This document shows positions 37,281 through 40,916 of a stretch of 64,000 bases of DNA, piece by piece (the first letter of the stretch is position 1; each line of letters opens with the position of its first letter). The notes under the pieces were generated by a model, which did not search any database, had not been told where the DNA came from, and worked only from the letters and a program-made list of their open reading frames with translations. A program made the position numbers and the translations under genes. The stretch covers positions 1 through 64,000 of the forward strand of contig CACVAX010000041.1 in the NCBI GenBank assembly GCA_902727935.1, in the 5' to 3' direction. The stretch comes from an uncultured Sulfurovum sp. Lineage in GTDB: Bacteria > Campylobacterota > Campylobacteria > Campylobacterales > Sulfurovaceae.

Positions 37281-37289
37281 GGGGGGGGG
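37281..37289 (+). repeat. Nine-G homopolymer tract
   Basis: A run of nine G in a spacer that is otherwise strongly AT-rich, about 65 bases past the NACHT gene stop and 98 bases after the carbonic anhydrase gene. Tracts like this are the usual slippage sites of phase-variable loci in Campylobacter and Helicobacter. Only a five-codon reading frame runs over it here. Confidence 0.9.
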
Positions 37290-37353: not shown

Positions 37354-40300
37354 TTAATCTAGGGGTAATCCCAATTTTTCTTTTATTCTTTTTATATCTT
37401 TTAATTTAGCATTTCTTTTAAGTCTTATTTCTTTAGTTTTATTTTTATAAATGGTATAAAATTTATTATTCTTTATGTAAAGAGGTGATTTATTATTAAA
37501 GGTATTTTTAATAATATTTTCTATTTCATCTTCATTATTTTTACGAAAAAAAATCTTTTTAAATAAACTAGTATTATTATTTATTTGTTTAAGTTTTAGA
37601 GAATCTAATACTACGTTTAAAGCATCTATGTGTATATCTACATCATTAAAAGTATTTATTTTTATATTATTTTTATTCTTTCGTTGGTATTTTATATACT
37701 TAAGAAGTATTAGGATTTTAGTATCTTTTTTTTTACCTTTGTAGTAAATTATATTTTTAAAATTTTCAATAACTTGCTCATTAAAAGCATCCAAGATTTT
37801 TATTATATTTATTTTATCTTTATGACTTTCATCATTATTATTTTTAATAATATGAGCTAAAATCACAATTACATCTTTTTTTAAATTTTTATTAGAAATA
37901 TCACTTTTAATTATATCAATCATGATTTCTGTAAACTTTTTACTATTAACATAATAAAGTGCCTCACTTACTTCTACTTTATTTGAATAATCAACTTTTG
38001 TATTTTGTAATAAATTAATGAGAGTAGTAAGTACGATATCATGATTAATATTAATTAAGCAAATTATTTTTATTAGTTCTAATATATATTCATTTTTTTT
38101 CTTTTCTTCTGCACCTTGTATAACCTCTAACCAATTTATAATAATGATTAAAAAATCATTATTATCTTTATCTATGGAGACTAATAATTTTGCAACCTCT
38201 AATTTATTCTCAAAATTGAGTCTCTCATCTTTTAAAAAAATTAAAAGAATTTTAATAAATTTTTTATGCTTTTTTCCAATAAAACTTGAGTCTATTACTA
38301 TTCTTAATCTTACAAGTATTTTTATACTTTCTTTTTCCATTAGTGATAATAAAAAATTAATAAATTCTTTATTGTTTTTTATTTTAGGTATTTTTTTTCC
38401 AATTTCAATTTTTGCCAATGTGTCAATAGTTTGATTTTTAATTAAATCTCTTACATCTAATTTCAAAATAATCCTATAAACTGGACTTAGCACTCTACTT
38501 ATTTGTATATCAGTAGAGCTTTCTTCCATTAAATTTTTAATAAATGTTATATATAAAGAGTTATATTTTTTGATTGAGACTAAAATTTTAGCCATATGAA
38601 CTCTCTCCTCAATGATGTAATCCTTATTTTGTATTAAATTTACTAAAATCTCTACAAATTTGTCATCATCTATATTTATAGACTTTAATACTTTAAATAT
38701 AACAGTCCTTACACTTATTGGCATAGTCTTCTTTTGTATTAATTTTATTAATAAAGTAGCTATTTCATTTTTATCTCTATTAATTTGAACCAATATTCCA
38801 ATTCCTCTTAATTTAGCATGATTAGTACTTAACTTATCATTTATTATTGACAATAAGGTATTCGTAATCTTTTTGTTATTTTTAAGAAAAAATAATTGCA
38901 TAATTTCTTTTTTTTCTAAGGGCTTAAATGTATTATTCATAATAAAACTTATGAGAAAATTAATGGTTGTATTATTTATAAGATGTTCTACCGTATGTAA
39001 TTTTTTTAATAAAAAGATATAATTTTTTTCATTCTCTAATACAAATGCTAACCAACAACTTAAATTATGATTAATAGCTAAGATCCTTTTTTCTATTAAG
39101 TTTTTATGTTGCATATTACTTATTAAATTTAAAATTAATAAAAACTCATAAAATCCACCTAAGTCTCTAGGTTCGCTCTTGATTTCTTCAAGTAACCATT
39201 CCTTATCCTGAATCAACCCACCCAAAAACATAAAAAAGAACTCCATATAAGGATAAAATTTATACTCTCGAATAACCTCACTTATCTCTTTTTTAGATAG
39301 CTTTGACACGTATAAAGCAGAAAAGTACTCTTGAAAGGTTAAGTGAGGAAACTCATAGTTATTCATTAGTGGATTTCGATGTTTTCTATCACTTTTTAAA
39401 AATCCTGTTTTTAGTACATAGTCAACAAAAAACTCTTTTTTCTCTTTGATAATACTTTTACCTAAAACGATATCTCGGTTTTTTAGTCCGTCAAATGCTA
39501 CTTTTCCTAAATAGTCAAATATTTCATCTTCTCTCTCTTGAAGATAAGTTGTATGGTTGGTTTCACTGTACTCTGAAAAGCTATACTTTATCACTTCATG
39601 ATAAAGCTCCGTCATAGTCATAGGAGAAATAATTAATTGATTATTTTTAGCTTTTTTTCTCCAAATTGAACAAATGATTTCCAATATTAAAGGAATATAG
39701 GCAATGTGCCTAATATTGATGTTTTGTTTCAAAAAAGTTTGTAGATTATTTTTATTGCTCTGCTCTTCAAAAAAATTATCTATATAGGCTGTTACATTCT
39801 CATCAGTAAATCCAATCGTTTCAAAAACTTCATTTACATCAAAATCACTTCTTCTACTCTGATAAGGTCGTGAAGTTATGATATAGTTTTGAAGATTATA
39901 CTTTTTTATCGTATTATGTAGTAGAAAGGTATCTGAAAGCTCATCATACCCATCAAACAAAAAAAGCGTCTTGAATGGGTTTATATCTATTCTTTTATGC
40001 TTGTATCTTTCTTGAAAATAGAGCTTTTTAAGAATGCTCTCTAACTCATCCTTTTTCCACTCTCTTAGTGCAATATAGAAAATATTTTGAAACTCACAAT
40101 AAAGCTCTCCTTTTGCCCATCTATAAGCGATATATTTACACAAAGTAGTCTTCCCAATACCTGCTTTTCCATAGATAAGGGCTTTGGAAGAGTTGAGTTT
40201 AGATGATTTTTGTATTAACTCCTCTATGGCTATTGGTTCTTTTGGTTTATATATCTCTTCATAAGAGTTTATGATTTTATCTCGGTCTAAAAATTTTGCT

Positions 40301-40482
40301 TTGTCTTTTATATCCTCTTCTTTTTCTTCTTTGATAATGGCAAGATTGACATAAATATCATCTATTTGCTTTTTGTCATCTTCGATTAATAGTGAGATAG
40401 TTTTAAAATGGTTTAGATAATACTTAGTACATAACTCTTTAAGTTCTTTTGCCCCTATTTTGAGGTTTATTGGTTTGGGTAG
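37354..40482 (-). CDS. NACHT NTPase with HEAT-like repeats, no canonical start
   Basis: A STAND-type ATPase of the bacterial NLR-like group, many of which act in phage defence. The track start (TTG, 40143) falls inside the P-loop; the frame continues upstream and gives ALIYGKAGIGKTTLCKY, the true Walker A, preceded by SYEEIYKPKEPIAIEELIQK. Walker B is FLFDGYDELSD and sensor 1 NYIITSRPYQS. The last 600 residues contain repeated pairs of helices about 40 apart (ILVNLIQNKDYIIEERVHMA, TTLINLLQNTKVDYSNKVEV), a HEAT-like sensor array. From 40482 to 40143 there is no ATG, GTG or TTG, so it needs a -1 frameshift from the preceding ORF, an ATA start, or is broken. Strongly AT-rich. Confidence 0.8.
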   Translation of the reverse strand, partial: LPKPINLKIGAKELKELCTKYYLNHFKTISLLIEDDKKQIDDIYVNLAIIKEEKEEDIKDKAKFLDRDKIINSYEEIYKPKEPIAIEELIQKSSKLNSSKALIYGKAGIGKTTLCKYIAYRWAKGELYCEFQNIFYIALREWKKDELESILKKLYFQERYKHKRIDINPFKTLFLFDGYDELSDTFLLHNTIKKYNLQNYIITSRPYQSRRSDFDVNEVFETIGFTDENVTAYIDNFFEEQSNKNNLQTFLKQNINIRHIAYIPLILEIICSIWRKKAKNNQLIISPMTMTELYHEVIKYSFSEYSETNHTTYLQEREDEIFDYLGKVAFDGLKNRDIVLGKSIIKEKKEFFVDYVLKTGFLKSDRKHRNPLMNNYEFPHLTFQEYFSALYVSKLSKKEISEVIREYKFYPYMEFFFMFLGGLIQDKEWLLEEIKSEPRDLGGFYEFLLILNLISNMQHKNLIEKRILAINHNLSCWLAFVLENEKNYIFLLKKLHTVEHLINNTTINFLISFIMNNTFKPLEKKEIMQLFFLKNNKKITNTLLSIINDKLSTNHAKLRGIGILVQINRDKNEIATLLIKLIQKKTMPISVRTVIFKVLKSINIDDDKFVEILVNLIQNKDYIIEERVHMAKILVSIKKYNSLYITFIKNLMEESSTDIQISRVLSPVYRIILKLDVRDLIKNQTIDTLAKIEIGKKIPKIKNNKEFINFLLSLMEKESIKILVRLRIVIDSSFIGKKHKKFIKILLIFLKDERLNFENKLEVAKLLVSIDKDNNDFLIIIINWLEVIQGAEEKKKNEYILELIKIICLININHDIVLTTLINLLQNTKVDYSNKVEVSEALYYVNSKKFTEIMIDIIKSDISNKNLKKDVIVILAHIIKNNNDESHKDKINIIKILDAFNEQVIENFKNIIYYKGKKKDTKILILLKYIKYQRKNKNNIKINTFNDVDIHIDALNVVLDSLKLKQINNNTSLFKKIFFRKNNEDEIENIIKNTFNNKSPLYIKNNKFYTIYKNKTKEIRLKRNAKLKDIKRIKEKLGLPLD

Positions 40483-40838
40483 TTATGCACATTTCCAAAA
40501 TTATTATTGATTACTCCACCTTCATTATGTTGATGTTGGATACCTTGAATTGTACCATTGTTAATATATTTAGTTTTTTTAATATATTCTTGAAAAACTT
40601 CTTTCTTCTCTTCTTCACTTTTCATTTGTTTTATGTCATCAGGGGTGTTAATAATTGTAGCTTCAATAATATCTGTTATTTCCTCTATTTCTTCATTAGA
40701 TACATCTTCTAATTGTTCCAAAGCATTTACTTGTTTAGCAATATAAACACGTAGTACAAAATCCTTGGCACTCTCCATATAGGAAGTAAAAGCTTCCCAA
40801 AGTATTTTATGTAAAATTGAATCTGGTATTTCTATCAT
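40467..40838 (-). CDS. Small ORF upstream of, and probably fused to, the NACHT protein
   Basis: A 123-residue acidic protein with AGGA before its ATG. Residues 1-85 are helical (SILHKILWEAFTSYMESAKD, SNEEIEEITDIIEATI); the end is Asn- and Gly-rich (GTIQGIQHQHNEGGVINNNF), like linkers that precede the NTPase domain in several NLR-like proteins. The stop TAA lies at 40469-40467. Just before it the codons TAC CCA AAC contain C-CCA-AAC, a canonical -1 slippery heptamer in the correct phase; a slip there continues as PINLKIGAKELK into the NACHT frame, for a product of about 1161 residues. As a separate protein its role is unknown. Confidence 0.7.
   Translation of the reverse strand: MIEIPDSILHKILWEAFTSYMESAKDFVLRVYIAKQVNALEQLEDVSNEEIEEITDIIEATIINTPDDIKQMKSEEEKKEVFQEYIKKTKYINNGTIQGIQHQHNEGGVINNNFGNVHNYPNQ
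40473..40479 (-). promoter_or_regulatory. Candidate -1 ribosomal frameshift heptamer CCCAAAC
   Basis: Fits X-XXY-YYZ in the zero frame of the 123-residue ORF. A slip by one base enters the open NACHT frame two codons before the zero-frame stop. Eight bases further on, CCTC and GGGG could form only a weak hairpin. Confidence 0.5.
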
Positions 40839-40916
40839 GTTGTTCCTATTAATATCATTTTGTATTTATTTTATCGAATAACTTTAAAATAAAGCTAATA
40901 AAAAGCATTAAAATCT

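Follow-up and report, generated by a model that had tools for sequence, protein, structure and literature searches.

A candidate -1 frameshift joining a small helical protein to a NACHT NTPase in an uncultured Sulfurovum

BASS NLR/Bell pairs are encoded by adjacent genes and carry a short motif common to the effector C-terminus and the receptor N-terminus (PMC7889193). A similar design is found in GAPS6, where a small helical protein (GapS6a, NF047935) is encoded directly upstream of a partner of ~1100 amino acids (GapS6b, NF047936), GapS6a carrying the motif QTHFGTGDNVGGNKIV at its C-terminus and GapS6b a similar motif at its N-terminus. Model-identified GapS6a/GapS6b pairs from plasmids of Rahnella and Pantoea, retrieved via the relative C70 described below (one GapS6b above the model cut-off, two just below), have this two-gene layout, 3-4 nt apart, with the same shared motif. 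The bNACHT defence proteins combine a NACHT core with an all-helical C-terminus, and none in the literature found depends on frameshifting. Cellular -1 frameshifting in bacteria is represented by dnaX, copA and csoS2 (PMC5009743), where one mRNA gives a short and a long product with a common N-terminus by means of a slippery site and a hairpin. Proof of frameshifting exists for no more than a handful of cellular genes in bacteria.

Here, we describe a locus that shares features with each of these systems, found in a window of 64,000 nt (the whole stretch of DNA analysed; contig CACVAX010000041.1, uncultured Sulfurovum sp.). It comprises a small open reading frame (N-ORF, encoding the N-protein) followed by a NACHT frame and, judged by its arrangement, may work like a GAPS6- or BASS-type effector-receptor pair, although by model it is not a GAPS6 member. 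Unlike in GAPS6, the partner is a NACHT NTPase with no match to GapS6b, the NACHT part lacks a separate motif copy and the two parts appear to be joined by a -1 frameshift. The likeness to BASS pairs, a short helical effector next to an NLR, extends to motif placement and pairing only, the amyloid trait being putative here, and one motif would be shared through the frameshift instead of two copies. In contrast to dnaX, copA and csoS2, the shift would here give the long product, which is also the case for gag-pol and for few dnaX genes, and the gene encodes an immune-type NTPase. What is new in this locus is its mode of expression.

Organization of the split locus

The features of the locus, all on the minus strand, are as follows.

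40844..40847, minus: Shine-Dalgarno-like AGGA 5' of the N-ORF ATG, read from the sequence
40838-40467, minus: N-ORF, ATG start, 123 aa; zero-frame product with a helical domain (~residues 6-88) and a Gly/Asn/Gln tail
40473..40562, minus: N-protein tail, ~residues 93-122, NNGTIQGIQHQHNEGGVINNNFGNVHNYPN; proposed amyloid-like signalling motif, in a position matching the motif common to the two-gene relatives
40482-40467, minus: 16-nt obligate overlap of both open frames, in which the shift site must fall (frame analysis)
40479-40473, minus: slippery heptamer C-CCA-AAC, in phase; identical in the copies C22 and C46
40452..40465, minus: hairpin CCUC-AAAAUA-GGGG, 3' of the heptamer, -4.1 kcal/mol
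37354..40473, minus: -1 frame part of 1039 post-shift codons, encoding the NACHT NTPase and its C-terminal helical solenoid
39763..40179, minus: NACHT domain (PF05729, E 1.3e-18)
40170-40147, minus: Walker A, GKAGIGKT
40141..40143, minus: TTG, first possible start of the NACHT frame, directly behind Walker A
37357..39192, minus: C-terminal all-helical repeat array, HEAT-like (low-confidence model, mean pLDDT 51.6)

The N-ORF is preceded by a Shine-Dalgarno sequence, and its zero frame is open up to the heptamer. Its 3' end reads TAC CCA AAC CAA TAA, so that the first base of C-CCA-AAC is the third position of a zero-frame codon; frame analysis agrees on this point with a first-pass annotation of the window, which had proposed a -1 slip at the heptamer into the NACHT frame. 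That frame opens after a TAA (40485-40483) and runs for 1042 codons to 37354. Since the two frames overlap just there, ribosomes arriving from the N-ORF have 40482-40467 as their only place to cross into the NACHT frame, and a shift at the heptamer would give a fusion of 122 + 1039 = 1161 residues, the length that had been estimated. The NACHT frame contains no ATG, GTG or TTG 5' of Walker A. The first-pass annotation was right that no usable start precedes this motif, but the TTG at 40143 directly follows Walker A and does not lie inside it. Reinitiation downstream was rejected, since Walker A would be lost.

The NACHT frame is the sole complete frame of the window with at least 60 start-less codons followed by more than 100 codons after the first start, one frame cut by the window edge having been set aside. 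The chance of finding an in-phase X_XXY_YYZ in a random 16-nt stretch of the window's long ORFs is 4.3%, and that of CCCAAAC is 0.02%; these figures are weak taken alone, and the weight comes from the relatives.

The downstream product belongs to the NACHT STAND NTPases, as indicated by the PF05729 match together with Walker A and a Walker B motif (LFLFDGYDE). The HEAT repeats proposed earlier have no Pfam match; what stands of that assignment is that the C-terminal half is predicted, with low confidence, as tandem helices. NACHT residues 39-398 align with NLRP3 chains (E 1.7e-14), a resemblance of a bacterial NACHT to human NLRP3 over 360 residues (39290-40368, minus strand). The N-protein is modelled as five helices (residues 6-88, pLDDT ~70-88) with a tail (residues 101-123) below 50, and no PDB structure matches the fold of its modelled N-domain (best E 3.5).

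Conservation of the split and selection on the NACHT frame

The closest homologues were retrieved from whole genomes. The same split is present in three loci, namely the window, a paralogue on another contig of the same genome (G000:C22, 64% amino acid identity to the window) and a copy in another MAG of an uncultured Sulfurovum (G022:C46, CACVAP010000046.1). In each of them CCCAAAC lies in phase, with a stop 0-1 codons later and a hairpin after a spacer of 6-7 nt, and in 3/3 no start codon precedes Walker A. The N-ORFs of C22 and C46 read CAC CCA AAC followed by TAA or CAA TAA, with NACHT in the -1 frame. Both parts thus recur together with the same split, and the heptamer is kept in every split copy found. 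An assembly or sequencing indel, for which the first-pass annotation had advised a check, could be suspected from a single-base shift in a draft genome of 60 contigs; this is almost inconceivable, since the paralogue, which lies on a different contig, and a separately assembled genome (contig coverage tag 26x) are split identically, and no other complete frame of the window is broken likewise. Sequencing error was accordingly rejected.

The window hairpin, at a spacer of 7 nt, is weak, as had been noted on first reading, whereas its counterparts in C22 (GCCCC-AACAUC-GGGGC) and C46 (GCCCC-AAUAUA-GGGGC) each reach -10.9 kcal/mol at near-equal spacing (six bases). When codons were recoded synonymously, with the amino acids held fixed and the codon usage of this genome, an equally stable hairpin was obtained in 4/5000 recodings for C22, 5/5000 for C46 and 188/5000 for the window. 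The stem varies too little between copies to show covariation, and the surroundings of the heptamer have no clear excess of conservation over the general level of NACHT coding DNA. The three loci have no Shine-Dalgarno stimulator in common (GGAA in the window, GGAG in C46, none near in C22).

Over NACHT-frame codons 13-104, from the heptamer to Walker A, dN/dS is 0.07 for window-C22 and 0.10 for both window-C46 and C22-C46, at a pS of 0.38-0.62 among the three copies. Such strong purifying selection between the heptamer and Walker A indicates that the start-less NACHT frame is, or very recently was, translated. Constraint on the N-frame is weaker (dN/dS 0.28-0.78), and the nucleotide identity between window and C22 jumps from ~50% to ~85% at the heptamer. 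C46 is decaying, with an internal out-of-frame deletion in its N-domain and its NACHT cut at ~249 codons by unrelated sequence, and it therefore testifies to ancestry only. The intact split copies number two, both in one genome.

The decay of C46 and the poor constraint seen when the N-domains of window and C22 are compared (dN/dS 0.78, from a weak alignment) are what would be expected if an ancestral fused or two-gene system had been broken by a frameshift mutation, all copies now being pseudogenes. We consider this improbable, given 1042 and 629 open codons with no stop and the low dN/dS just behind the junction at a pS of up to 0.62; moreover, for lineages so diverged to be broken at the identical base, the break would have had to persist for long. 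The split frames with no usable or independent downstream start, the in-phase heptamer inside the overlap in all three loci, the conserved arrangement with a hairpin 6-7 nt downstream (~5-9 nt being expected; weak in the window) and the coding selection on both frames, weaker on the N-frame, are features of the sequences themselves. They point to a programmed -1 frameshift, which probably makes both a free GapS6a-like effector and an effector-NACHT-solenoid fusion.

Behind the NACHT gene, C22 (L033) and C46 (L034) carry the same gene for a P-loop ATPase of 435-440 aa (LTKNQLFEILLDWNYWNR...), with differing upstream neighbours. This gene, absent from the window locus, perhaps marks a shared defence island.

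Two-gene relatives and the shared motif

Two further relatives, C191 (G031) and C70 (G155), encode the same NACHT with its own ATG and an N-protein gene upstream, and contain neither the heptamer nor the GGGGC stem. Their N-proteins end in QTHYGSGDNVAGDK and QTHYGSGDNVGRDKIV, nearly the same motif as in GAPS6, and a second, near-identical copy is found at the N-terminus of their NACHT proteins (QNHSGSGDNIAGDK and QTHFGNGDNVGRDKIV; 14 and 16 residues aligned, gapless). They thus display the shared-motif trait of GAPS6. The frameshift loci have no second motif copy on the NACHT side, as predicted by a fusion in which the N-ORF supplies the receptor's motif, and the single copy of the window would reach both products only via the frameshift. 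The frameshift loci would in this way replace the two-gene layout by one motif used in both products. Homologues with their own NACHT ATG and no heptamer had been named in the first-pass annotation as evidence against a frameshift. C191 and C70 do not refute it, because each of the five loci has either the ATG or the heptamer, never both, and the relatives with an ATG carry the extra motif copy.

These observations also bear on termination-reinitiation at an AUA overlapping the stop of the N-ORF (AUAA), which would yield a NACHT protein with no fusion. The AUA is kept in the window, C22 and C46, close stop-start overlap is a usual geometry of coupling, and the two-gene relatives express N-protein and NACHT separately. 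However, AUA is a very poor bacterial start and has no Shine-Dalgarno sequence at a useful distance here, the resulting protein would lack the N-terminal motif carried by the two-gene relatives, and the in-phase heptamer and hairpin would be left unexplained, which makes reinitiation highly improbable.

In the NACHT tree, C191 groups with the frameshift copies in a single clade (100/100) and branches within it, nearest to the window, the inner forks being weaker. This position suggests that the split is probably of long standing in this clade and that the two layouts appear to interconvert by a swap of the 5' module.

In 4/5 two-gene pairs with a GDNV-type motif, the ATG of the large gene lies in the N-ORF frame a few codons past the N-ORF stop (the GapS6a/b-like pairs L059, L060 and L036; L035), as if motif and stop had undergone an in-frame duplication; stop read-through would also fuse the products in this layout.

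The N-protein as a partner and the proposed mechanism

The N-proteins of C70, C191 and C22 match the GapS6a model at E 1.2e-7, 8.7e-5 and 1.3e-4, respectively (22-32 bits, against a cut-off of 90), and the window N-protein has no match to it. The best reading from these comparisons is that the N-protein is an effector or adaptor distantly resembling GapS6a, its C-terminus bearing a Gly/Asn motif. A homologue encoded as a free-standing gene (L042, 51% identical to the window N-protein) lies beside an NB-ARC/TPR gene. Relatives of the N-protein are separate genes adjoining NACHT, NB-ARC and GapS6b partners; as they stand before genes of these three kinds, their genomic placement indicates that several receptor types have this small N-protein as a movable partner.

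The NACHT family is rare, with relatives in ~10 genomes in total when the family, draws from the phylum and order, and the nearest relatives were searched. Scans of IMG/VR gave no relative of the N-protein or of the NACHT family, the phage records gave no match to the NACHT query, and the plasmid collection gave one distant NACHT only (24% identity) and nothing for the C22 N-protein query. Motif-pattern matches in two GC-rich viral sequences were dismissed as chance, there being no matching frames, and weak N-protein matches in a class-wide search (E ~1e-4), inside long unrelated frames, were set aside as likely coiled-coil noise. Other NACHT-family members (L004, L006, L007, L008, L029) differ in the N-terminal domain that is fused to them within a single ORF; that of L004 is SMEK (E 3.4e-40) and the others are possibly nuclease-like.

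We propose that most ribosomes would terminate at the N-ORF stop and release the free small helical protein, while a minority may slip back one base on C-CCA-AAC, aided by the hairpin, and go on to make the 1161-residue protein of N-domain, motif, NACHT and helical solenoid. The cell would thus hold many free N-proteins and few fusions. The fusion is the presumed phage sensor; on activation it may oligomerise and recruit or template free N-protein via the shared motif, as proposed for BASS pairs (PMC7889193), and the recruited N-protein could then kill or arrest the cell. Receptor and effector would draw on a single encoded copy of the motif, compared with two copies in the two-gene relatives. 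In E. coli, 61/64 heptamers are shift-prone with a strong stimulator, those ending in AAC not being the best, and the best class is V_VV.A_AA.R (PMC4066793). C_CC.A_AA.C falls outside this class, so the slippage rate may be low. Because tRNA state and ribosome pausing both influence slippage, phage attack on translation could itself change the receptor dose.

It is also conceivable, if somewhat unlikely, that the frameshift is real but that only the fusion matters, the short N-product being a by-product of a site that keeps the receptor dose low. The fusion of N-terminal domains such as SMEK in one ORF among other NACHT-family members agrees with this, yet the N-protein relatives are separate genes beside NACHT, NB-ARC and GapS6b, and a free form is normal for that family. 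Returning to a frameshift in which both products act, we tentatively suggest an NLR-type receptor whose synthesis, and ratio to its own effector, might be set by -1 frameshifting, with a single encoded motif that ends the free effector and likewise the receptor's effector domain. If true, this would be a genetic means of fixing the ratio of receptor to effector and of letting the two share one signalling motif. In the output of gene finders such receptors will show up as start-less fragments or pseudogenes, and others may be hidden. The first-pass annotation knew of no NLR-like defence gene controlled in this way, and no earlier report of frameshift control of a bacterial immune receptor, nor any precedent linking frameshifting to NACHT or anti-phage defence, was found in the literature searched, which takes in few subscription journals.

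Between the NACHT stop and a carbonic anhydrase-like gene lies a run of nine C (37281-37289, minus strand); C tracts can be phase-variable in Campylobacterota.
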